Positions 45,129 to 58,006 of a stretch of DNA of 64,000 nt are shown here, one piece after another. The stretch is from the NCBI GenBank assembly GCA_000381585.1, contig KB906734.1, positions 806,001 to 870,000 on the forward strand. Direction: 5' to 3'. The notes under the pieces are model-generated. The model was not told where the DNA came from and searched no databases. It was given only the letters and a program-made list of their open reading frames with translations. This DNA is from Acidobacteriaceae bacterium KBS 83. Lineage in GTDB: Bacteria > Acidobacteriota > Terriglobia > Terriglobales > Acidobacteriaceae. The stretch's first letter is position 1. Each line of letters starts with the position of its first letter. The position numbers were made by a program, and so were the translations under genes.

Positions 45129-46910
45129 CTACTTCTGTTTCGGCCTGAACGTTGCGATGATGCCATCGCCTTCGCGAATGGTGAGTATCTGGTTCGCCTT
45201 CACTTTCAAAAATCGTTCAATTTTTTGCGTTGTCGGCCATTTCACTTCGATGGAATCCACCGTCTCGATCGCGCCCAAACCGAAGTGGAGCCGAAGATCG
45301 CTCTGCGACATCACACTTGCACCGCTGTGCACCTCATCCATCTGAATGTGCTTGCCGGTAAAGACACGCACCCTCGCGCCAATCGCCGTGCGATTGCATT
45401 TGGTCCCTACCAGTTTGATCTTGATCCAGTTCTGCTTGTTGCCGCCATCGTTGCGTAAGAGCGACGGCAGATCATTCATGTTGAGAACCAGCGCGTCCAT
45501 ATCGCCATCATTGTCATAGTCGCCGAAGGCAGCGCCCCTGCTGGAATAGTGCTCGTTGATGCCTGGTCCCATCTCTGAAGAGACATCCTTGAAATGGCCG
45601 TTGCCGAGGTTTTTGTAGACCAGTCGTGGATTCTTGAACTTCTGATCGAAATCGTACTTGTCTATCTCTGGATAGACATGCCCATTCGCTTGAAGAATGT
45701 CCGGCCAGCCATCGTTGTCGTAGTCAATAAAACCGCATCCCCAGGCCACGTAGCGGCTGTTCACCCCGACGCCTGCGGGAAACGTGACGTCGGTAAATGT
45801 CCCATCGCCATTGTTGTGATACAGGTTGCATGTATCATCCGCGAAGTTGGTTTTGAAAATGTCGAACCAGCCATCGCAATCGTAGTCCGCAACGGCAATT
45901 CCCATGCCCGCCTGTTCATGACCGCTGTCGCTGTAAGCGCAATTCGCCATCACAGCGACATCCGTAAACGTGCCGTCATGATTGTTCTGAAACAGGATGC
46001 TGGGCTCGGAATCCACCGCAACATAAATGTCCGGCCAGCCATCGTTGTTGAAGTCATACGAGACTGCGGTAATGGAATATCGCGGACCGGCTTTTAAAAT
46101 GCCCGCCTTTTCCGACACGTCGGTAAACGTCCCGTCTCCATTGTTGTGATACAGGATGTTCGTGTCCGCGGGAAGACCACGGGGGCCGCACATGATGGGA
46201 ACGCCCTTCCACTGGCAGTAGTGTGTCACATCCGCAGAGGGAATCTTGTCCGGATCCAGCTTGATGTAATTGCAGACGAAAAGGTCGAGATAGCCGTCCC
46301 TGTTGTAGTCAAGGAAAGTGCATCCAGCGCCCCAGCGGACTTCTTTCTGTTGCAGGCCGGCCTTCTGAGTGACATCGGTAAAGGTGCCGTCTCCATTGTT
46401 ATGGAACAGGGCGTTATGTCCCCAGAAGCAGCAGAACAGATCATCCCATCCATCGTTGTTGTAGTCGCCCACGCACACCCCGGTCTGCCAGCCGGTCCGC
46501 GACAATCCTGATTTGGCTGTCACATCCGTGAATGTGCCGTCGCGATTGTTTTTGTACAGTCGCGACGTTGGCGCTTTGCCGGCCGGCCATTGCGTGTCGA
46601 GCCGATCGCCATTGGTGAGATAGATATCCAGCCAGCCATCGTGATCGTAGTCAAAGAACGCCAACCCGCTTCCCTTGGCTTCGATGATGGACCGTTTGTG
46701 ATCAATGCCGCCCCACACGTTGGGCGTATTTAGCCCGGCCTGTTGGCCCACATCCACAAACTGAATTGGAGGTGCCGAAGGCTTCGACGTCGCGGCCAGG
46801 AGCAACTCGGAGTCTTTCCATCGCCAGAGTGGAGTGGCAAGCGCCTCCAGCAATGTGCCGCTAAGCATAAACAAAGAGGTACCGAGAAAACGCCGGCGGG
46901 GCCAACTCAT
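45129..46910 (-). CDS. Tat-exported CRTAC1 family protein (FG-GAP repeats plus ASPIC/UnbV)
   Basis: The 593-residue protein has a Tat signal (MSWPRRRFLGTSLFMLSG). About seven FG-GAP/VCBS units follow with the calcium-loop pattern DYDHDGWLDIYLTNGDR, DYNNDGWDDLF, DYNRDGYLDLF, DFNNDGWPDIY, DYDCDGWFDIF and DYDNDGWPDIL, each tied to an NNGDGTFTDVT turn. It ends in an ASPIC/UnbV domain (RTAIGARVRVFTGKHIQMDE, HFGLGAIETVDSIEVKWPT). This builds a calcium-binding beta-propeller. Its job is not established; adhesion or glycan binding is usually proposed. It begins 23 bases after the stop of the larger CRTAC1 gene, so the two form an operon. Confidence 0.93.
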   Translation of the reverse strand: MSWPRRRFLGTSLFMLSGTLLEALATPLWRWKDSELLLAATSKPSAPPIQFVDVGQQAGLNTPNVWGGIDHKRSIIEAKGSGLAFFDYDHDGWLDIYLTNGDRLDTQWPAGKAPTSRLYKNNRDGTFTDVTAKSGLSRTGWQTGVCVGDYNNDGWDDLFCCFWGHNALFHNNGDGTFTDVTQKAGLQQKEVRWGAGCTFLDYNRDGYLDLFVCNYIKLDPDKIPSADVTHYCQWKGVPIMCGPRGLPADTNILYHNNGDGTFTDVSEKAGILKAGPRYSITAVSYDFNNDGWPDIYVAVDSEPSILFQNNHDGTFTDVAVMANCAYSDSGHEQAGMGIAVADYDCDGWFDIFKTNFADDTCNLYHNNGDGTFTDVTFPAGVGVNSRYVAWGCGFIDYDNDGWPDILQANGHVYPEIDKYDFDQKFKNPRLVYKNLGNGHFKDVSSEMGPGINEHYSSRGAAFGDYDNDGDMDALVLNMNDLPSLLRNDGGNKQNWIKIKLVGTKCNRTAIGARVRVFTGKHIQMDEVHSGASVMSQSDLRLHFGLGAIETVDSIEVKWPTTQKIERFLKVKANQILTIREGDGIIATFRPKQK

Positions 46911-46933: not shown

Positions 46934-49900
46934 TCAGGGCAGAGAGTTCAATACGTCGATCGCCTGTTTGGCGTTTGGGTTGTCGGGCTGCACGCGTAGC
47001 AGATCCGCCAACGCCTCTCTCGCTTTCTCCTTATCGTTCTGCATCACGTAGAGGCGGGCCAGATTGAGATAGGACTGGTCGAACTTAGGACTCATCCGAA
47101 TACAGCTCTTGAACTGCGCCTCTGCTCTCGCATAGTCCTGTTCCCGGACGTAGAGGACACCGAGGTTGTTCAATGCTTCGGGATAGTCGGGACGCAGCTC
47201 AGCGGCTTTCTGCAAATATTGCTCGGCGCGCGGCAATTGGTTTTGCTGCGCATAGAGCATACCGAGGCTATAGTTTGCTTCCGGATCGTCAGGTTGTAGC
47301 TCAAGGGCACGGGTCAGGCAGTCCTGCGCCTTTTCAGAATCTCCATGCCGTCGATACACATTCCCCAGATTCAGCAGTGCGGTGGCATAGCCGGGGCGCA
47401 ACAAGAGTGATTGACGGAAATTCTGGACAGCTTCGTCCATGTGACCTTCTTGAGCGGCCATCATTCCAAGGTTGTTCCAAGCCTCCGGATAGTTCGGTCG
47501 CAGCTTTAATGCTTCTTCAAGATATTGGCGCGCCTGCGAATAGTCATGCCGCTGAAGGCTGAGAGTGCCCAGGTTGTAGTAGCCTTCGGGGTTGTTCGGC
47601 TTTGCCGCAACCACCTGTTGAAAAGACGCTGCCGCTTCATCTAGATAGCCATGTTGAAGCATCGCCACGCCGTAGGTGAAATCGTTGCGCACAAATTCGT
47701 TTAGGTACGCTGTTCCAGCAAATGGAAGTGCTCTGCGCATGCGCTCCGTCGCCGTTGCCGGGACCGATCGCACATCCTTGAGCAGATCCGCTAGCTCGAG
47801 CGCCCCCTGATACACCTTCACGATCATGCCCCCCCTGTCCACCAGGAAGGCGGTCGGGATCGCAAGATTCCTGCGCCGGTCGAAGAGGTATCGATAGACG
47901 ATGTTGTAGATTCCTGCAACATCCTCGGTTGCAAAAAGAACCGGGAAGGAAAGCGCTTCAAGTCCGGCGGCCGATCGTGCCTCCCTGGCGTCACCCGCAT
48001 CATTAGCCGCACTATCCACATTGATCGCTACGACTTTCAGACCGCTCCCGGCTAGCGATAACCGGCCCCGATCAAGAAGCTTCAATTGCTCGCTCGAAAT
48101 CGGAGCCGTCTTAGCCCAGAAAATGAGAAGCACGAAGTGATCCCGAAATTCCTGAAGCGACCGCGTATTTCCCGAGAGATCAGGCAACGTGAACTCGGGT
48201 GCCTTCAAAGGCTCCATGAGCCAGGTAGCTACTCGAGATGGCAGCTGCTCCGGAACAGTCGGCTGCGCCGGTTGCGCATAGGCTGAAGGCGGCGCCGCAA
48301 AAGCTGTGGCCGAAAATGTGTCGGAGCCTTCCTCGATTTCAATGCGACGGTTTATCGGCAGAGCATTCCATTCCTGAGAGAGCCCGCTCGGCCACCGGAT
48401 CATGGCCCGAACTGTTCCTTCCTCCTTCCCCAGTCCAAAGAAGATCTCTTTTGAATGCTGGGCAAGAAACCCGGAGCCCGCCTGCAGATACTTCGTCTGG
48501 CGTAGCGCTCCGGACTCCACCACGACAGCAGCACCGATCGCATCGCGATTGCTTTTCTTCCCTCTCAAACGAAACGCTATGGAATGGCCAATATCCTTCA
48601 TCGCATTGTGCATGATCCGAAGTTGCGGCGCGTTGCGGTTTTTCAAAATAACCTCGAGCCGTCCGTCATGATCGATATCGGCCAGAACAAACGAGCGTCC
48701 ATCCTCAGGGAAGTCGAGCCCCACTACACCTGAAACCTCAGAGAATGTCCCGTCTCGATTGTTAGCGAACATTACATTTCTTTCGTAGCCGTTCCAGGAG
48801 CGGTCAGAACGAATCAATTCGTTGATCGCCTGCCATCCGCGCTCATACGCCTGCGCCGGCGTAGCGTCATCGGGAGAATTCCCCACCACCTGCCGCCAGA
48901 AGAAACTCGCAAGATCGTTCCGCTCCGGCGCCGAAATATAGCCATTGGCAACATAAAGGTCGGGATAGCCATCATGATCGAAGTCCCAGAAATCCGAGCA
49001 CCAGGACCAGCGCCCCATCTCCACTCCGGCCTGCCCGCTCACGTTGTCGAACTGCCCATTCCCCTTGTTCCTATAGAGTGAATTGCCTCTGGCATGCCTG
49101 CGGTAGAGCGCGCGAATGTCCTCCGGAGCCTTCTCGTGAAAGAGCTTCTGATCTGAAACTCTCTGGCCCGCCGCTGACCACATGTTCGCTGCGTAGATGT
49201 CCTGCTTGCCGTCATTGTCGCAATCGGACCAGCACGCGCTCATCCCGGCGCCTGCGTCGTCAACGTGGGCTGTACCTGAGATCGCACTGAATGTGCCATC
49301 GCCGTTGTTGCGATATAAATTACTGCGGCCGAAATCGTTGGCTACATAAAGATCGGCAAAGCCACTCGAGCCTGACTCGCCCCACGCGCAGGCAAAGCTG
49401 TAGCGATCGTTCTCCGCGTTTAAGCCTGCCGCTGCAGTCCGGTCCACAAAGACTGCATTTCCCTCGTTATGCAGAAGAAAATTTGCTGGGCCATTTCGTG
49501 CATCGAAGTAAGGCGCCGGATAGTGATACTGGTCGAGTCCGAGGTAGTAGCTATAGAGGCAGAAATAGATATCCAGACGACCATCACCGTCATAGTCCGC
49601 GATGGCTGCATGCGTGAATGTGCCCTCAGGCGGATGCGCAAACTGAAATGCATCCCGCTTGATCGCGAATGTGCCGTCGCCTTGATTGAGGAACAGGAGA
49701 GGACCACCACCGCAAACCACTAGTAGATCCTGAAATCCCCTGTTCTGAAAGTCGGCGAAAAGCGCGCATGCGGTGTTGTCCAACACGCCGACTCCGGATT
49801 TCTCTGTGACATCTTCAAACGTTCCGTCGCCACGATTGCGGTAAAGCCGATTTGGCAATCCCGCCGGCTGGCAGACATAAAGATCGTCTAGTCCATCGTT

Positions 49901-50791
49901 GTCGAAATCGCCCGCAGCCACACCGTTGTTGCCATACACATCGATGCCGCACGCGCCATCCAGAACAGTGCGCCAGTAATCTGAGCCCCGGAGCATCTGG
50001 TTCTTGTATGAGTCCGCTCCGCCGAGCGCCTGAGAAGTGATGTCGATGAACACAGGCCCGTTGATGCGGCAGAGAGTTTCTTCTCGAGCCTGCCATTTTG
50101 CGGCCTTCCACTCCGCTGTTCCGTCCCGCCGCCACTCGGTGCCCCAGGTTCCCACACGCTCGTCGCGCTCCTGGCCAGTCCGCTGCGCGACGATGTCATA
50201 GCGGATCTCCAATCGAACCGCCAGCGGAGCACTCGCTATTTCTTCTATAGAAGTAATTTCGAATTCCGCTACATCGATTCTCGAGACCGGTCCCAGCCAG
50301 GTCCGGATCTCCTGGAGGAATCCCTCACTCCCGTGCACAATTTCAGTGGGAAAGCGTCTCCTTACAACCTCGATCCCACCTCCCGCGCGAAGCGTGGTCT
50401 CCGTGGGGTCACTAAACGAGCTGCCTTCGATCGAGGCATTCAGGAACTTTGCGATTTCCGAAATGCCGCGTGCAGATCTCCTGATAGCCGCGCTCCACTG
50501 TTCCAGCAGGGACCCGATCTCGTAGGCATACTTTTCCGTAACGAATTCGTCCGCGCCCGGTTCGACAAGTCGCAACACGTCTTCCAGGGGAGATTTCGCC
50601 GGGTAGTGCGGTGCCAGACGAATGTCACTGAAGGGAAAGGAAGGATCCTGATGATGGAGAACATCTCCAAACAAGAGCGAATAGCCATGAAGCGGCGACG
50701 GGCGCAGCAGAAGCGGCGCAAACCCCAGGCCCTTCAGGATCGTTCGTCGGGAAACGCCGTGATTTTCTGTTGAATGACGCGGCATCCTCAC
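46934..50791 (-). CDS. Tat-exported CRTAC1-redoxin-TPR fusion protein
   Basis: The 1285-residue protein has a Tat signal (VSRRTILKGLGFAPLLLR), an N-terminal helical and NTF2-like region (about 60-240), FG-GAP units (DFDNDGLDDLYVCQP, DYDGDGRLDIYFC, DCDNDGKQDIYAAN, DFDHDGYPDLYVANGY, DIDHDGRLEVIL), ASPIC/UnbV (NRDAIGAAVVVESGALRQ, FGLGKEEGTVRAMIRWPSG), a thioredoxin-fold redoxin domain (about 865-1000), and seven or so TPRs to the end. The redoxin active site reads FWAKTAPISSEQ where TlpA-like proteins have WCxxC, so both cysteines are missing. The start may be the GTG at 50791 or the ATG at 50785. Confidence 0.9.
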   Translation of the reverse strand: MRMPRHSTENHGVSRRTILKGLGFAPLLLRPSPLHGYSLLFGDVLHHQDPSFPFSDIRLAPHYPAKSPLEDVLRLVEPGADEFVTEKYAYEIGSLLEQWSAAIRRSARGISEIAKFLNASIEGSSFSDPTETTLRAGGGIEVVRRRFPTEIVHGSEGFLQEIRTWLGPVSRIDVAEFEITSIEEIASAPLAVRLEIRYDIVAQRTGQERDERVGTWGTEWRRDGTAEWKAAKWQAREETLCRINGPVFIDITSQALGGADSYKNQMLRGSDYWRTVLDGACGIDVYGNNGVAAGDFDNDGLDDLYVCQPAGLPNRLYRNRGDGTFEDVTEKSGVGVLDNTACALFADFQNRGFQDLLVVCGGGPLLFLNQGDGTFAIKRDAFQFAHPPEGTFTHAAIADYDGDGRLDIYFCLYSYYLGLDQYHYPAPYFDARNGPANFLLHNEGNAVFVDRTAAAGLNAENDRYSFACAWGESGSSGFADLYVANDFGRSNLYRNNGDGTFSAISGTAHVDDAGAGMSACWSDCDNDGKQDIYAANMWSAAGQRVSDQKLFHEKAPEDIRALYRRHARGNSLYRNKGNGQFDNVSGQAGVEMGRWSWCSDFWDFDHDGYPDLYVANGYISAPERNDLASFFWRQVVGNSPDDATPAQAYERGWQAINELIRSDRSWNGYERNVMFANNRDGTFSEVSGVVGLDFPEDGRSFVLADIDHDGRLEVILKNRNAPQLRIMHNAMKDIGHSIAFRLRGKKSNRDAIGAAVVVESGALRQTKYLQAGSGFLAQHSKEIFFGLGKEEGTVRAMIRWPSGLSQEWNALPINRRIEIEEGSDTFSATAFAAPPSAYAQPAQPTVPEQLPSRVATWLMEPLKAPEFTLPDLSGNTRSLQEFRDHFVLLIFWAKTAPISSEQLKLLDRGRLSLAGSGLKVVAINVDSAANDAGDAREARSAAGLEALSFPVLFATEDVAGIYNIVYRYLFDRRRNLAIPTAFLVDRGGMIVKVYQGALELADLLKDVRSVPATATERMRRALPFAGTAYLNEFVRNDFTYGVAMLQHGYLDEAAASFQQVVAAKPNNPEGYYNLGTLSLQRHDYSQARQYLEEALKLRPNYPEAWNNLGMMAAQEGHMDEAVQNFRQSLLLRPGYATALLNLGNVYRRHGDSEKAQDCLTRALELQPDDPEANYSLGMLYAQQNQLPRAEQYLQKAAELRPDYPEALNNLGVLYVREQDYARAEAQFKSCIRMSPKFDQSYLNLARLYVMQNDKEKAREALADLLRVQPDNPNAKQAIDVLNSLP

Positions 50792-51107: not shown

Positions 51108-54100
51108 ATGGCCATTGATCGCAACGTTTCCCAGTGGTTCAGACGTGTCGCCTATATAGCCTTTGCATGCTTGATTGTGCTGGCTCAGCCGCAACATCTC
51201 TTCGCCCAGGTGGATGCAGGCGTCATCAACGGAGTGGTTCAGGACTCCTCTGGCGCCGCGGTGCCCAACGCACACGTAACCCTCTTGAACACCGATCAGG
51301 GCATAACCCTTGAGACCACTACGGGCAGCGCCGGCGAATATGTCTTCTCGCCGGTCAGAATCGGCCATTACACCGTCACCGTGGCCGCCCCGGGATTCTC
51401 TACAACCACACAGCAAAACCTGACTGTGACTGTCGGGCAGCACCTGCTCGTCGACGTCAAGCTGAGTCTGGGCGCCGCCTCGCAAACTGTCCAAGTCACC
51501 GCTGCGCCGCCTCAGTTGCAGACGGATGAAGCGTCGGTCGGACAAGTCGTCAATCAGCACACCCTCAACAGTCTGCCTTTGAATGGACGCAACTTTACAT
51601 TTCTTGCGCAGTCTGTCGCGGGCGTAAACACGCCCCAGGCGGACACCCGCGGCAACGCCGCCTCTGGCGCCTTTTCAGCCAATGGCTTGCGCCCCGCGCA
51701 GAACAACTACCTGCTGGACGGCATTGACAACAACTCCAACGCCGTCGACTTCCTGAACGGAACCAACTTCGTCATCCTTCCTCCGCTGGACGCCATCCAG
51801 GAGTTCAAGGTGCAGACGGCAGATTTCAGCGCTGAGCTTGGCCGTTCGGCGGGCGCCGTTCTGAATGCCACCATCAAGTCCGGAACCAACAGCATTCACG
51901 GCGCGGCATGGGAATTTTTCCGCAATGACGTCCTCGACGCGGCCGACTGGTTTGAAAACAACTCCAACACCAAAAAGGGCGAGCTGCGACAGAACCAGTT
52001 CGGTGCCTCCATCGGCGGCCCGATAATCAAAGACAAGCTCTTCTACTTCGGCGACTATGAAGGCTTCCGCCGCGTGCAGGGCACTGTCCTTAACGGCAGC
52101 GTGCCGACACTCACCGAGCGAAATAGCGGTTTCACCAACCTCTCCGACCTCATCACCCAACAGACAGGTCCGGCGAGAACGGATGCACTGGGTAGAACCG
52201 TTCCCTACGGAACGGTTCTTGACCCGGCCACAACACGTGCAGTCACCGCGGGCGCAATCGATCCTGTCTCCGGCCGCGCAGCGACGCAGTCAGGCTTTGT
52301 TCGCGACCCGTTCGGATCCTGCGGACCAAGCACGTCCGTTTACTCGCTCACTGCTTGCGGCCTGAATCAGCTCCCTGCAGGCCGTCTGGATCCGAACGCC
52401 GTAAAGCTGCTGAATCTGTACCCCGTCCCCACAACCGGTAGTTTTACCAACAACTACACCAACAGCCCCAGCCTTTTCGAACACAAGAACGCCTTTGACG
52501 TTCGTGTCGATTTCAACCCATCCGCGAAGGACCAGGTCTTCGGCCGCTTCAGCTGGGCGGATGATCCCCAATTCATCCCCGGCATCTTCGGTGGGATAGC
52601 GGACGGTGGCGGCTTCCAGCAGGGCGATCAAACCTACAGATCCTACCAGTCGGTCCTCGGATATACCCACGTCTTTACCCCGACCACCATCAATGTGGTG
52701 CGCGTCGGATTCAACCACCTGCATACCACTCGGACCGGTCCGGAAGGGAACACGCTGGGTATCCCGGCGCAATTCGGAATTCAGGGCATCCCCCAGGTTC
52801 CATTGAATGGTGGACTCCCCGCGATCCAGATCGCGGGTCTGAATGAACTCGGCAGCAATGACTTTCTGCCCTCCGACGAAATCAGCCAGACCCTTCAGGT
52901 CACGGATGACTTCACCAAGATCTACGGCAAGAACAGCTTCAAAATGGGCATGGAGTACCAGGACGTACACTTCAATACCCTGCAGCCGGCCTTCTCACGA
53001 GGTCAGTTCAACTTCGACGGCAACTACGCAGGCGTTCCGAGCCAGACCGGAGATCAGACCGGTCGCGCCGCAATGCTGCTGACTCCAACACTCTCGACCG
53101 TCGGCGGCCCTAACGGTATAGGCGGCGCGAACCAGGTGCAAGCGTCCAATATCGCCAAGACCTACGACCAGAGAATCTATCTGGCGTTCTACTTCCAGGA
53201 CGACCTCAAGGTCACCCCCACCTTGACTCTCAACCTGGGCCTCCGTTGGGATTACTTCAGCCCCATCTCAGAGACCAATGGCGCCCAGGCTAATTTTGTA
53301 CAGAGCGGTCCCCCGGGTGGGCCGGTTTACCTCATCCCGGCAACAGGGAAGGCCAACAGACAGCTGTCTTCGACTGCCAATAATCCCTCTCTGAATGGGC
53401 AAGGGTTCCTCGACCTGCTGGCGAAGGATGGCATTGCGCTCGGCTCTACCAACCAATACGGAAACGCTCTCGTACAAACTCAGAAAAATAACATCGCTCC
53501 ACGATTCGGCTTTGCCTTCCAGGCGACTCCGAAGCTTGTACTCCGCGGCGGATTGGGTCTCTTCTACAACGCATTTGAAAACCAGGGTTATGGCCCGAAC
53601 ATAGGCGAAAACTATCCCTTCGTTTACAACTTCAACTTCCAGACAAATGGCTCTGACAGTGCGCCCTTCGGTGCTGGCCCCAACCCGTACGGCACATGTC
53701 CAACGGCTGGTGTGGGGGGCAGTGCACCGATCGGCACTGGTCTCACCTGCGCCGCCTTTACTCCTCTGGCGGTCAACGCCTCAGGTTTGAGCCTGCAGGG
53801 GCTTCAGTTCGACTATAAAACGCCTCGTACTTTGAGCACGAATCTCACTCTCCAATATGCGTTGACGAACACGTTGACCGCGCAAGCGGCATACGTCTTC
53901 ACCGACGGCAGCAACCTCCAGACTGGCGCGCCTGGCAACAATAGACCGTCTCAACTTCTCCCCGCCAACACAAGCACAACTCCTTTTGTTCCTTTCCAGG
54001 ATTTCGCCCAGGGCGGTAGCTACCAGCGGACCATTGGAAACAGCAATTACAGCGGCCTGCAAACCAAACTTGAACAGCAGCTTGCGAATGGTTTGAGCTA

Positions 54101-54911
54101 TCTCCTCACCTACACCTGGTCCAAGACGATGTCTAACGCGGGTGATCTCCTGAATGGCAGCCCCAACGAAAGATATCGGGCGCCATATGTTCCGGGCGCG
54201 GGTCCCAAATTTGATTGGGGTCCGGCAGACTTCGATATCCGCAACGTATTCCACCTAAGCGGCACCTACGAGCTTCCGTTTGGTAAGAACAAAAAGTACA
54301 TGGCTAACGCCGGCAAGCTCGGGAACAGCGTCTTCGGAGGCTGGAGCGTCAATGCCCTCGCGGTTATCCAGGGTGGTCAGCCCATCTACCTCAGTTGTCC
54401 AAGCGGAACGACCTCTGGGACAAGCTGCAATGACTTGAAGGTTCCCGGCCAGAGCCAGAAGCTTGGCATTAAAACCAAGACAGATCCCACCACTGGAAAG
54501 ATCAACCTCTTCTGGTTCGGGAATCCGGCCGCCTTCAATCAGCCCTGTCTGCTTGGGGATAATGGCCAACTGGTGACTCCCCTCACACCAACCGGATGCG
54601 TGCCTCTGAACGGTTTGGCAATCCTGGGTGACCGGCCTGGATCAGCCCCCGGTCCGGGCATCCGCCGCTTCGACTTCTCAGCCTTCAAGGGCTTCCAGAT
54701 CAGCGATCGTATCTCGATGCAGTTCCGGGCTGAGTTCTTCAACATCCTCAATCATCCGAACTTCAACGCTCCAAACTTCGGCGGCAACGGCGTCTCCGCC
54801 ATCGGAGGCTCAGGCGACTTCACCAACTCTGCCTTCGGTCAAATCGGATCCACTCGATTTGCTCCATACGATCCAAGGCAGATCCAGTTCGCTCTAAAGC
54901 TTTATTACTGA
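51108..54911 (+). CDS. Oar-like TonB-dependent receptor with N-terminal carboxypeptidase-regulatory domain
   Basis: The 1267-residue protein starts after GAGAGAGAGG. It has a signal peptide (YIAFACLIVLAQPQHLFAQ), a CarboxypepD_reg domain (about 38-125: AGVINGVVQDSSGAAVPNAH, YVFSPVRIGHYTVTVAAPGF), a plug (SLPLNGRNFTFLAQSVAGVN, NNYLLDGIDNNSNAVDFLNG, IQEFKVQTADFSAELGRSAG, GAVLNATIKSGTNSIHGAAW), and a long 22-strand-type barrel ending with the outer-membrane sorting pattern QIQFALKLYY. This is the common acidobacterial type, expected to import large ligands such as oligosaccharides with TonB energy. Two exported TPR genes follow, and divergent CRTAC1 genes precede it. Confidence 0.95.
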   Translation: MAIDRNVSQWFRRVAYIAFACLIVLAQPQHLFAQVDAGVINGVVQDSSGAAVPNAHVTLLNTDQGITLETTTGSAGEYVFSPVRIGHYTVTVAAPGFSTTTQQNLTVTVGQHLLVDVKLSLGAASQTVQVTAAPPQLQTDEASVGQVVNQHTLNSLPLNGRNFTFLAQSVAGVNTPQADTRGNAASGAFSANGLRPAQNNYLLDGIDNNSNAVDFLNGTNFVILPPLDAIQEFKVQTADFSAELGRSAGAVLNATIKSGTNSIHGAAWEFFRNDVLDAADWFENNSNTKKGELRQNQFGASIGGPIIKDKLFYFGDYEGFRRVQGTVLNGSVPTLTERNSGFTNLSDLITQQTGPARTDALGRTVPYGTVLDPATTRAVTAGAIDPVSGRAATQSGFVRDPFGSCGPSTSVYSLTACGLNQLPAGRLDPNAVKLLNLYPVPTTGSFTNNYTNSPSLFEHKNAFDVRVDFNPSAKDQVFGRFSWADDPQFIPGIFGGIADGGGFQQGDQTYRSYQSVLGYTHVFTPTTINVVRVGFNHLHTTRTGPEGNTLGIPAQFGIQGIPQVPLNGGLPAIQIAGLNELGSNDFLPSDEISQTLQVTDDFTKIYGKNSFKMGMEYQDVHFNTLQPAFSRGQFNFDGNYAGVPSQTGDQTGRAAMLLTPTLSTVGGPNGIGGANQVQASNIAKTYDQRIYLAFYFQDDLKVTPTLTLNLGLRWDYFSPISETNGAQANFVQSGPPGGPVYLIPATGKANRQLSSTANNPSLNGQGFLDLLAKDGIALGSTNQYGNALVQTQKNNIAPRFGFAFQATPKLVLRGGLGLFYNAFENQGYGPNIGENYPFVYNFNFQTNGSDSAPFGAGPNPYGTCPTAGVGGSAPIGTGLTCAAFTPLAVNASGLSLQGLQFDYKTPRTLSTNLTLQYALTNTLTAQAAYVFTDGSNLQTGAPGNNRPSQLLPANTSTTPFVPFQDFAQGGSYQRTIGNSNYSGLQTKLEQQLANGLSYLLTYTWSKTMSNAGDLLNGSPNERYRAPYVPGAGPKFDWGPADFDIRNVFHLSGTYELPFGKNKKYMANAGKLGNSVFGGWSVNALAVIQGGQPIYLSCPSGTTSGTSCNDLKVPGQSQKLGIKTKTDPTTGKINLFWFGNPAAFNQPCLLGDNGQLVTPLTPTGCVPLNGLAILGDRPGSAPGPGIRRFDFSAFKGFQISDRISMQFRAEFFNILNHPNFNAPNFGGNGVSAIGGSGDFTNSAFGQIGSTRFAPYDPRQIQFALKLYY

Positions 54912-54935
54912 CGCTATACTCGTAGCAAAGATGAG

Positions 54936-54970
54936 CACCCCGGGAACCACTCTCCGGGGTGTCTCTTTTT
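54936..54970 (+). terminator. Terminator after the receptor gene
   Basis: Stem CACCCCGG/CCGGGGTG (54936-54943, 54954-54961) with a ten-base loop is followed by TCTCTTTTT. It lies between the receptor and TPR paralogue 2, so some transcription into the TPR genes would have to read through or start anew. Confidence 0.8.
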
Positions 54971-55009
54971 GCGCAGCGTATGCTCACGCGACAATCGCCG
55001 AGGTGTGTA

Positions 55010-56425
55010 GTGAACAAGGGGTCTCTGCTGCGGCTTGTCCTTCTTTGTTCGCTGGTCGTCAATGCATCGTTTGCACCGGCCCAACAGAACCAGGGCAATC
55101 TTCTCGATCAGGAGTTTCAGTCCGCAGTCGCGCAATACCACGCGGGCAACTTCGCCGCGGCCGCCACTCAACTCGAAAAACTCTCAGCCACCGCCCCGAA
55201 GAGCTTTGAAGTTCACGAGCTCCTAGGTCTGGTCTATGCCGTACAGTCAAAACACGAGCAGTCCGTAGAACAGCTGCAAATTGCTGTTCAGCTGAAACCG
55301 GATTCGGCCGCAGCAAGAACAAATCTGGCAACGAGCCTTCTTCATGCCGGGAAGGCAGACTCGGCGGAAGAGCAGTTTCGTCAAGCGCTCACCCTGGAGC
55401 CGGATGATTTTCAGGCGAATCACAATCTGGCTGAGTTTTACATCCAATCAGGAAAGCTCCCGCAGGCGATACCGCTCCTCGAAAAGGCGCAGCAGATCCA
55501 TCCGACTTCCTATGACAACGGCTACAACCTGGCGCTTGCCTACTTCCTCACTGGGCGGCTCACCGAATCAAGACAGCTTGTTGAGAGCATCGCGCAACAG
55601 AAAGATACCGGTGAGCTTCACAATCTTCTCGGTAAGATCGATGAGAAAGACGGAAAGTTTGTGGAGGCGGCGAATGAATTCGAGACAGCCACGCGCATGG
55701 ACCCGAGTGAGGACAATCTCTTCGCTTGGGGAAGCGAGCTTCTCCTTCACCGGACATATGAGCCAGCCATCCAGGTCTTCCAGCAGGCAACGCAGCGCTT
55801 TCCGAACTCGCCGCGATTGTGGATCGGGCTTGGAATGGCCCTCTATTCGCGGGGTAGGTACGAGGAGTCAATTAAGGCGCTCCTCAGCGCAGCGGACCTG
55901 AATCCAACCGACCCCCGCTGTTACCTCTTCCTGTCCAAGGCCTACCTCAGTTCGCCAAGTCAGGCGGACGATGTAATTCAGAGATTCCGGCGTTATGCGG
56001 AGCTTCAACCTAACAACGCGTTGGCCCAGTATTACTATGCGGTGAGTTTGTGGAAGGGAAAGCGATCGGAAGCGTCCAGCATTAACTACCAGCAGGTAGA
56101 GTCCCTGCTGCAAAAATCGATAGCACTGGATGACAAACTCGCGGAAGCGCATTTGCAGTTAGGCATCCTCTACGCCGACCAGCACGAATATGCTAAGTCG
56201 CTCCCCGAGTACACGCGAGCAGTGACGCTCAACCCCAATCTCCCGGACGCTCACTACCGTCTAGGCCAATACTATGTGCGCTCCGGGGATAAGGAACGCG
56301 CGCAGCGCGAGTTCCAAACCTTCCAGCAACTCCAGGCACAACACCAGTCCGAGGTCGATAAGGAGCGCGCTGAAGTCCGCCAGTTCGTCTACTCATCCAA
56401 TTCCGCCCCTGCCACCGGGCCTTAA
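55010..56425 (+). CDS. Exported TPR protein (TPR paralogue 2)
   Basis: The 471-residue protein probably starts at the GTG at 55010, seven bases after GAGG, giving the signal peptide LLRLVLLCSLVVNASFAPAQ; in-frame starts upstream would fuse the terminator into the coding region. Eleven or so TPR units fill the rest (EVHELLGLVYAVQSKHEQSV, NHNLAEFYIQSGKLPQAIPL, PDAHYRLGQYYVRSGDKERA). The block PSEDNLFAWGSELLLHR and the C-terminal charged coil are shared with paralogues 1 and 3. It is a periplasmic or surface scaffold and a candidate partner of the receptor. Confidence 0.88.
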   Translation: MNKGSLLRLVLLCSLVVNASFAPAQQNQGNLLDQEFQSAVAQYHAGNFAAAATQLEKLSATAPKSFEVHELLGLVYAVQSKHEQSVEQLQIAVQLKPDSAAARTNLATSLLHAGKADSAEEQFRQALTLEPDDFQANHNLAEFYIQSGKLPQAIPLLEKAQQIHPTSYDNGYNLALAYFLTGRLTESRQLVESIAQQKDTGELHNLLGKIDEKDGKFVEAANEFETATRMDPSEDNLFAWGSELLLHRTYEPAIQVFQQATQRFPNSPRLWIGLGMALYSRGRYEESIKALLSAADLNPTDPRCYLFLSKAYLSSPSQADDVIQRFRRYAELQPNNALAQYYYAVSLWKGKRSEASSINYQQVESLLQKSIALDDKLAEAHLQLGILYADQHEYAKSLPEYTRAVTLNPNLPDAHYRLGQYYVRSGDKERAQREFQTFQQLQAQHQSEVDKERAEVRQFVYSSNSAPATGP

Positions 56426-56554
56426 TCCTTGCTGCTATCACATGTGGACCTGAGTGTCTTGCCTGCGTCTATCCGCCTTGCGGACCCTTCTCCGAGCACT
56501 ACAATTCTTCCGAGAGGCGCCGATACTTACTTGCCGCCGGAGATTCCTTTACTC

Positions 56555-58006
56555 ATGAGTTCAATCTTCCTCGCACAGTGCCGGCCACTTAGCTGGCATT
56601 GGTTACGGGCGTCAACCTTGTTTGCGGCGGTCATGTTGTGGGGGCTGGCAGTATCTTCGCCTGCAACCTTCGGCCAAGCGCGCGGAAGAGCAGCAGAAGC
56701 GATGACAACCACCGACGCGGCGAAACTCCGCGAAGCTCTCGCCGACTATGACCAGGGCCGGTCGGAGCAGGCGAAGCCCATACTTCAGGATCTGCTCGTC
56801 CACTATCCGGCCAACTTCGACATCAACGAGACCCTTGGACTTATCTACGCCGAAGCTGGCGATTTCACTGCCGCCCTGCCGCTGCTTGAACGCGCCGCAC
56901 ATCTCCAGCCCGGTGCAGCCATCGCTCGAGCCAACTTGGGCACCGCCTATCTCAAACTCAATCAGCCACAGAAGGCGCTACCGGAACTCGAAGCCGCCGC
57001 GCGATTTCAGCCTCGCGACCAACAGACCCAGACAAATCTGGCACACGCTTACCTGGAAACGAACGAGCCTGCAAAAGCCGCGCACGCCTTTTCATCTGCC
57101 GCCGCGCTGGGTCCTCTCGATGCAGACACTATGCACGACCGCGCTCTCGCACTCCTAGAAAGCGGCGATGCCGCCGGCGCAAAGCGAGTGCTCGACGCGA
57201 TCCCGCAAAGCGGCCGCAGCGACGCAACAGAGGAGATCGCTGGCGAGACGGAAGAGCGCTTGGGCAATTACCGCCAAGCCGAGGAGCACTTCTCTGAGGC
57301 AGCGCGCCTGAACCCCACGGAGCCCAACATCTATGCCTGGGTAGTCGAGTTGTTGCGCCACTTCTCATGGCAGCCCGCCGTCAAAGTCGCCGATTACGGC
57401 ATCCAGCAGTTTCCTTCGAGCACCCGCCTCAAAGCTGCACGCGGCATCGCGTTCTATGCCGACAACAGGTATAAGGAGGCGGCCGCTGTGTTTTCCGACC
57501 TGCTGACTGCCAATCCCGGCAACGCCACTTGGGCCAATTTGCTCGGCCGCAACTGCGCGCTCATCGCGGACACCACCGTCACCGGGTGCGATAGCCTGCA
57601 ACGCTTCGCCGATCAGCACCCCCGCAACGCGGAGGCCGCCACCTACGCCGCTACCGCGCTCCTGCACCAACCTGCCGAGAAGCGCGACAACGCCAGAGCC
57701 CGCGCTCTGTTGCAGCAGGCCGCCGCGGCCGACCCCTCGCTCGCCGACACCTACTATCAGCTTGGCGTGCTCGATCAGGAAGAAAGCCACTGGCGGGACA
57801 GCACCACGCCTCTGGAAAAGGCAATCGCGCTCAACCCTGCTTTCGCTGAAGCCCACTACCGTCTCGCTCGCGCCTATTCTCACCTCGGCCGCCGCGAAGA
57901 TGCCGCCAGGGAAATCGCGCTGCAGCAGCGCTATGCGAAACAGCAGAAGGACAGCGTCGACGCGCGGCTGAAGGAAGTCACCACCTTCCTCACCTCAACG
58001 CCTTAA
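56555..58006 (+). CDS. Exported TPR protein (TPR paralogue 3)
   Basis: The 483-residue protein starts at the ATG at 56555. Its signal peptide (RASTLFAAVMLWGLAVSSPA) ends near TFGQA. About ten TPR units follow (NETLGLIYAEAGDFTAALPL, ARANLGTAYLKLNQPQKALP, EAHYRLARAYSHLGRREDAA). The conserved block here reads PTEPNIYAWVVELLRHF, and the C-terminal coil is kept (KQQKDSVDARLKEVTTFLTS). It lies 129 bases after paralogue 2 on the same strand. Confidence 0.88.
   Translation: MSSIFLAQCRPLSWHWLRASTLFAAVMLWGLAVSSPATFGQARGRAAEAMTTTDAAKLREALADYDQGRSEQAKPILQDLLVHYPANFDINETLGLIYAEAGDFTAALPLLERAAHLQPGAAIARANLGTAYLKLNQPQKALPELEAAARFQPRDQQTQTNLAHAYLETNEPAKAAHAFSSAAALGPLDADTMHDRALALLESGDAAGAKRVLDAIPQSGRSDATEEIAGETEERLGNYRQAEEHFSEAARLNPTEPNIYAWVVELLRHFSWQPAVKVADYGIQQFPSSTRLKAARGIAFYADNRYKEAAAVFSDLLTANPGNATWANLLGRNCALIADTTVTGCDSLQRFADQHPRNAEAATYAATALLHQPAEKRDNARARALLQQAAAADPSLADTYYQLGVLDQEESHWRDSTTPLEKAIALNPAFAEAHYRLARAYSHLGRREDAAREIALQQRYAKQQKDSVDARLKEVTTFLTSTP

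Follow-up and report, generated by a model that had tools for sequence, protein, structure and literature searches.

A cysteine-free redoxin domain in an Acidobacteriota CRTAC1-type fusion protein, probably descended from a selenoprotein family

The fusion gene and its dead thiol site

The stretch of DNA analysed here, called the window, comprises 64,000 nucleotides of contig KB906734.1 of Acidobacteriaceae bacterium KBS 83. The gene of interest is the open reading frame (ORF) at 46934-50791 on the minus strand, which has a GTG start codon and encodes 1285 amino acids (aa). The ORF and its Pfam matches give the order N-terminal domain, CRTAC1-type propeller, UnbV, dead redoxin and tetratricopeptide repeats (TPRs). 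The original prediction, made from the sequence alone, had proposed the fusion of propeller, redoxin and TPRs in one protein, which Pfam confirmed with the addition of UnbV between propeller and redoxin. The FG-GAP propeller occupies residues 286-745 (48557..49936, on the minus strand like all features of this gene; Pfam FG-GAP_3) and matches murine CRTAC1 (9etn, E 1.2e-26). The UnbV/ASPIC domain (Pfam UnbV_ASPIC) follows at residues 751-817 (48341..48541), and these two domains place the protein among the CRTAC1/ASPIC-UnbV proteins. A thioredoxin-fold domain of the ResA/TlpA-like type, recognised by Pfam, by modelling and by PDB matches, covers residues 854-1008 (47768..48232), with the Pfam AhpC-TSA match at residues 863-992 (E 3.2e-13), and the Pfam TPR array extends from about residue 1042 to 1280 (46952..47668). 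At the N-terminus (50672..50791) a twin-arginine motif, SRRTILK, begins at residue 14. By motif rules we take it to be a probable twin-arginine translocation (Tat) signal and the protein hence to be exported; of the earlier claim of Tat export the motif itself is present, and its reading as a signal is presumptive.

The redoxin domain had been described as carrying TAPIS in place of WCxxC, and the alignment bore this out. From residue 891 the sequence reads FWAKTAPISSEQL, in which TAPIS occupies residues 895-899 (48095..48109) and Ala896 and Ser899 replace the two cysteines. No cysteine is present between residues 599 and 1157. The domain has a thioredoxin fold with its cis-proline (Pro979) and has no redox-active CxxC. 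A scan of genomes for close homologues returned 49 loci, all in Acidobacteria by their titles or genera, of which 41 can be read at near full length and the other eight are cut or frame-broken. Two of the 49 stop before the redoxin, and the close alignment consisted of the window and 47 homologues. Both cysteines were kept in none of these 48 rows; the first place is Cys in one row (locus L053; L and G numbers are our labels for loci and genomes) and the second in 18. The flanking Phe and Trp, also pointed out originally, remain in 45/48 rows at the F891 column and in 46/48 at the W892 column, and of 50 rows at the cis-proline column 47 have Pro and three have gaps. Since no close row has both cysteines, their loss is neither local nor due to chance but is a family trait. 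The possibility that the domain is active in general and mutated only locally was thereby ruled out, and the suggested check on whether the cysteine loss is general was answered in the affirmative.

The dead domain is predicted to form a proper thioredoxin fold still. A model of residues 41-1040 had a mean predicted local distance difference test value (pLDDT) of 90.9, matched CRTAC1 and had ResA among its best PDB matches, so that structure prediction, also suggested originally, recovered the fold with confidence. The domain shares with the ResA/TlpA-type thiol-disulfide oxidoreductases (PF00578) the thioredoxin fold, the FW before the site and the cis-proline, but differs from them in lacking both cysteines and in being fused behind a CRTAC1 propeller. 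The ratio of nonsynonymous to synonymous substitution rates (dN/dS) was estimated by a simple counting method on overlapping pairs with dS of 0.1-2 only. For the redoxin its median was 0.143 over 58 pairs of sequences without the in-frame TGA described below, as against 0.161 over 101 pairs of TGA-bearing sequences; the corresponding propeller values were 0.053 and 0.068. Judged from these codon comparisons, the dead redoxin is under much the same constraint as its intact counterpart, that is, under purifying selection, and a structural or binding role is therefore plausible. To this extent the earlier idea of a binding module stands. It missed a second candidate redox centre, a selenocysteine (Sec) where the propeller of the window protein has Ala628, which appears to have been lost along with the redoxin cysteines.

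An in-frame TGA in the propeller of relatives

A profile of the redoxin domain was searched in 396 genomes of Acidobacteriota, the phylum to which all homologue searches were confined. It recovered relatives with an intact WCxPC whose ORFs were apparently short. Walking back from 12 such short forms showed that in ten the frame upstream of a TGA runs on into the missing FG-GAP propeller, with the junction NGxxTxxxxDL-TGA-SFFWRQVV. In L101 the upstream frame stays open for about 65 codons before it breaks, and a frame break, not a propeller TGA, accounts for the short ORF of L114. A profile of propeller, UnbV and redoxin together (A3, from an alignment of 11 rows) matched 65/396 genomes at E <= 1e-70 with 77 rows, 52 of them with a TGA. 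The domain combination, which the original prediction could not match to anything known, is therefore present in many Acidobacteriota.

The states of the site were read on the fetched loci, in 117 sequences distinct over a 260-residue stretch. In 51 of them a TGA occupies one constant position of the propeller, D[L/T]-TGA-SxFWR[QH]V, at the same codon in both subfamilies; the window has the GCG codon of Ala628 (48908..48910) there. The other sequences have Ala (29), Gly (13), Asn (11), Ser (8), Asp (2), Glu (2) or Gln (1). The TGA-bearing relatives belong to Acidobacteriota families other than that of the window. There is one TGA per matched stretch, except in L172, which has a second one further on, and in G334 a TAG is also present upstream, at a frame break. 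The TGA of the 52nd TGA row (L188, G215) is at another position, and at the site this row has Glu. Matches under 320 residues were dropped from the 117: L052 and L056 stop short of the redoxin, L097 has Asp at the site and FWATWAPAS, and L114/L087 have a redoxin without Cys and a site that could not be read in frame; the other loci without a row repeat kept rows. A further TGA form with WCVPC (L195) was found later and stands outside the counts.

The state of the propeller site is closely associated with that of the redoxin. All 51 TGA sequences have [WY]CxxC, with Trp before Cys in 47 and Tyr in four. Among the 66 non-TGA sequences both cysteines are present in two (L125 and L161), only the first in two (L053 and L095), only the second in 26 and neither in 35, one of which (L060) has a deletion there; in the remaining one, L188, the redoxin could not be aligned. 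Another non-TGA locus, L049, is frame-broken downstream. In L188 no redoxin follows the Glu site, and the whole domain was possibly lost along with Sec. One genome, G319, holds four relatives (L161, L162, L191 and L195), three with TGA and one with Ser; the latter, L161, keeps CxxC and five of six pairs of the hairpin described below, apparently a recent loss. The long forms of the family carry TPRs. Seven scanned TGA forms of 956-1020 aa matched FG-GAP, UnbV and AhpC-TSA/Redoxin and gave no TPR matches, and the TPR-less TGA forms L162 and L164 cluster with long forms in the tree. At L118:1897-8440 (G343) a TGA form of each subfamily is present on the same strand within 7 kb.

The sequence after the TGA behaves as coding sequence. 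Ser follows in 41/43 sequences (as AGC, AGT or TCG), and Trp and Arg are present in 43/43, Arg in four synonymous codons. Since Trp and Arg are conserved with varying codons, these codons evolve as protein, and the relatives thus have what is looked for in a selenoprotein gene, a conserved in-frame TGA with coding sequence on both sides. TGA also serves as the terminal stop in L118, L100 and L101, and a genome-wide reassignment of TGA was ruled out for genes which end in it. A scan of 392 genomes with the exact pattern TGH-S-x-F-W-R-[QH]-V gave 44 matches, 42 with TGA and two with TGC, and none with the reversed pattern as a control. The two TGC matches were rejected as Cys homologues, being in unrelated sequence outside the family.

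A small apical loop containing G is given as a feature of the bacterial selenocysteine insertion sequence (SECIS) in PMC1088965. The TGA relatives have a hairpin of this type just downstream, beginning at nucleotide 12 after the TGA, with six pairs and a five-base loop, [G/C/A]GU[C/G/U][G/U], in which the G and U are invariant in all 36 distinct TGA sequences. All six pairs form in 28 of these 36 (the other eight have four) versus 2/66 of the non-TGA sequences, whose encoded peptide is nearly identical; for the inner four pairs the numbers are 36/36 versus 11/66. One pair varies between CG (21), GC (7), GU (5), UA (2) and AU (1). Paired cells amounted to 92.6%, as against 20-71% after sliding by 1-3 columns. 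Covariation was assessed by five measures with 500 shuffles, two of the five not being exceptional; none of the 500 shuffles matched the paired percentage, the covariation score or the number of cells changed on both sides. Among the non-TGA sequences only L112 and L113 form all six; both have Asp at the site and they belong to one clade. In the window the 36 nucleotides after the site (SFFWRQVVGNSP, 48872..48907) occupy the hairpin position and the hairpin is broken. With its GCG codon and fewer than five of the six pairs, the window gene itself does not have the marks of a bacterial selenoprotein gene.

Most genomes of the TGA relatives also contain the Sec machinery. In the 44 TGA-bearing genomes, tRNA-Sec was found in 39 at E <= 1e-10, a threshold of our choice (weaker matches occur in nearly all genomes), and SelB over the cut-off in 41; the respective numbers in the other 21 matched genomes are 9 and 10. 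In G266, which is 72% complete, a SelB-like fragment fell under the cut-off. The genome of the window has tRNA-SeC (tca), selD, selA and selB side by side at L197:7961-12601 (G000:C3), outside the window. Since this cluster is kept, Sec would have vanished from the window protein and not from the organism.

A TGA form, modelled with U entered as C, had a mean pLDDT of 90.3 and a predicted template modelling score (pTM) of 0.91. Its best PDB matches were murine CRTAC1 (E 7.5e-29) and ResA (E 1.0e-11), and VIA-align gave Z 35.8 with a root-mean-square deviation of 2.4 over 453 aligned residues for the former and Z 19.2 with 1.8 over 134 for the latter. In this model the candidate Sec, residue 381, opens a predicted helix (381-391), and the first redoxin Cys is residue 660, just before a predicted helix at 661-672.

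Probable loss of the two sites and competing explanations

A maximum-likelihood tree of the 117 sequences was calculated with the site and CxxC masked, by a quick search with support from the Shimodaira-Hasegawa-like approximate likelihood ratio test (SH-aLRT) only, and it was rooted between the two subfamilies. Three changes of the TGA and two of CxxC are needed on this tree. Breakage of CxxC is confined to branches without TGA, and L125 and L161 have kept CxxC with TGA absent. The two CxxC changes would be a breakage in the clade of L112, L113 and L193 and another in the clade beyond L125.

Given these results, we consider it likely that the window protein derives from a family of exported selenoproteins and is itself non-catalytic, its branch having lost Sec first and then the hairpin and the cysteines, with the fold being kept. 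In its original form the gene would encode, by an in-frame TGA and a bacterial SECIS-type hairpin, one Sec at the start of a helix on the CRTAC1-type propeller, and the fused ResA/TlpA-type redoxin with WCxxC, followed by TPRs in the long forms, would serve this Sec. In the likeliest chemistry Sec would attack a substrate that is oxidised or of disulfide type, and would then be reduced again by the fused CxxC. In the window lineage a non-redox residue, here Ala, would have replaced Sec, and the redoxin thiols, most likely part of one relay, would have been left without a task; the hairpin and the two cysteines would have decayed afterwards. The protein would have been kept, probably as a surface or periplasmic scaffold binding calcium and proteins; with the presumed export and the retained propeller, fold and TPRs, a scaffold role is our best guess. 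The fuller account is somewhat less secure, though still favoured: an uncatalogued family of exported Acidobacteriota selenoenzymes, with or without a TPR tail, in which an all-Cys redoxin recharges, in cis, a Sec carried by the calcium-binding CRTAC1 propeller, and of which the window branch lost Sec without Cys replacement and then the thiols, leaving a selected scaffold.

Several observations weigh against descent from a selenoprotein family. Under the strict threshold tRNA-Sec is missing from 5/44 and SelB from 3/44 TGA-bearing genomes, and G110 is without both. Moreover, 302/396 Acidobacteriota genomes pass the Rfam cut-off for tRNA-Sec; the trait is so common in the phylum that the presence of the machinery only permits the selenoprotein reading. 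Cys occupies the site in 0/117 sequences, which is not what selenoprotein families usually show. In the covariation test 46/500 shuffles reached the number of pairs changed on both sides and 115/500 the number of pair types, and since the covariation largely separates the two subfamilies, it stands for few events. Hairpins with five of six pairs in non-TGA sequences (L161, L032, L047, L048, L053 and L193) mean that the conserved peptide explains part of the pairing. As for the order of loss, a single early loss of CxxC with a regain in L125 could be equally short on the tree. The tree offers only two independent pairs (sign test p = 1), and the association of TGA with CxxC is therefore a strong pattern with few independent events.

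The last point leaves some room for an ordinary TlpA/ResA fusion in which the cysteines drifted away in one lineage and the distant TGA is unconnected with their loss, as the sequences without CxxC fall mainly into one large clade. With CxxC in 51/51 TGA members against 2/66 others and its breakage seen only on TGA-less branches, we regard such drift as unlikely. The TGA could also be a true stop, the relatives being split two-gene versions with translational coupling. A GTG is found at codon +7 (10/43) or +8 (40/43) after the TGA and a Shine-Dalgarno-like string nearby in 13/43 sequences, but the codons between TGA and GTG are conserved as protein (Trp and Arg in 43/43, with the four Arg codons), the non-TGA members read the same peptide through, and an intact hairpin accompanies the TGA, which has the identical place in two subfamilies. 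A split gene is thus very improbable. We give equally little credence to the window protein being still a redox enzyme by way of other cysteines. It does retain 12, among them Cys598 in the propeller near the site, but its redoxin domain has none, and residue 598 is Ser in 9/11 and Cys in 2/11 rows of A3. Least credible of all is a pseudogenising gene with the redoxin region as decaying junk; although no other stretch that was measured is as poorly conserved as the N-terminal half of the redoxin (mean identity 0.45), the dN/dS of 0.143 like that of TGA forms (0.161), the confident predicted fold and the near-full-length reading in 41/49 loci all speak against decay.

Relation to known systems and neighbouring genes

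The FG-GAP propeller with UnbV is shared with CRTAC1 (cartilage acidic protein 1), but the Acidobacteriota proteins have in addition the fused redoxin, in long forms the TPRs and, presumably, the DL-U/x-SFFWRQVV helix site. A 2026 inventory of prokaryotic selenoproteins holds 119 families, including a UGC-containing TlpA family and a Redoxin family protein UxxC (PMC13188914, Table 1). These share with the present candidate family the pairing of selenium and redox chemistry with a TlpA- or redoxin-type domain; by the motifs given in the inventory their Sec is inside the redoxin motif, whereas the candidate Sec here belongs to the propeller and precedes an all-Cys CxxC by about 280 residues. No entry for CRTAC, ASPIC, UnbV, VCBS, TPR, FG-GAP or propeller was seen among the 119 families as tabulated there. 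Selenoproteins turned into Cys forms, with Sec lost in Sec-decoding organisms and remnant SECIS hairpins, are described in PMC1794560. The loss in a Sec-decoding organism and the remnant hairpins are common to both cases, but here the residue changed to Ala, Gly, Asn, Ser, Asp, Glu or Gln, never to Cys, and the partner CxxC was lost too. NCBIfam gave no selenoprotein-specific CRTAC/UnbV model for three TGA forms (among the best 25 matches for two and all 22 for the third). In the open-licence literature of PMC, CRTAC with selenoprotein returned only human or animal studies by their titles, UnbV with selenocysteine returned none, and broader queries returned nothing relevant among the papers listed, FG-GAP with selenoprotein not being queried by itself.

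If the account is correct, this would be a new selenoprotein family with Sec outside the thioredoxin fold, and its TGA-bearing genes are likely annotated as two truncated ORFs split at the TGA. Little is understood of what CRTAC1-type propellers do, and a redox function would be suggested for this fold. The family would also present a natural series, from Sec with CxxC through CxxC without Sec and one Cys to none, in which a two-site redox relay was dismantled in a traceable order with the scaffold kept, and it would predict which Acidobacteriota copies are active and which inactive.

A clue to the substrate was sought in the neighbourhood of six loci, and no partner gene was shared among them. 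The neighbours encode FG-GAP proteins (one with CxxCH), a molybdopterin oxidoreductase, DUF1553/DUF1501 proteins, a porin, and an outer-membrane barrel with a TPR protein. The gene at L108:9697-11289, adjoining a TGA form, has FG-GAP repeats and, by eye, a haem-like CxxCH motif, and its product is a possible electron partner.

The N-terminal domain of the window protein (residues 41-285, 49937..50671) is conserved across the family and predicted to be alpha+beta with long strands. It had no Pfam matches in the window sequence; for the domain in general Pfam matches were weak and scattered, and only two weak PDB sequence matches (E 0.12-0.13) were obtained. The predicted strands may have an NTF2-like look. 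Among 105 matches in the window's own genome there was no second copy of the fusion, and the redoxin part also matched two small separate proteins of 246 and 262 aa. Immediately downstream, at 45129..46910 on the minus strand, an ORF with Pfam FG-GAP and UnbV matches encodes a CRTAC1-type protein without redoxin. The matched stretch is 5.3-5.7 kb long instead of 3.8 kb at many of the 49 homologous loci, which suggests that the same CRTAC1-type neighbour is present there. On the other side, at 51108-58006, the divergent neighbours encode a carboxypeptidase-regulatory/outer-membrane barrel protein and then two TPR proteins, and a similar barrel and TPR protein adjoin the relative of the window gene at L120 (G188).

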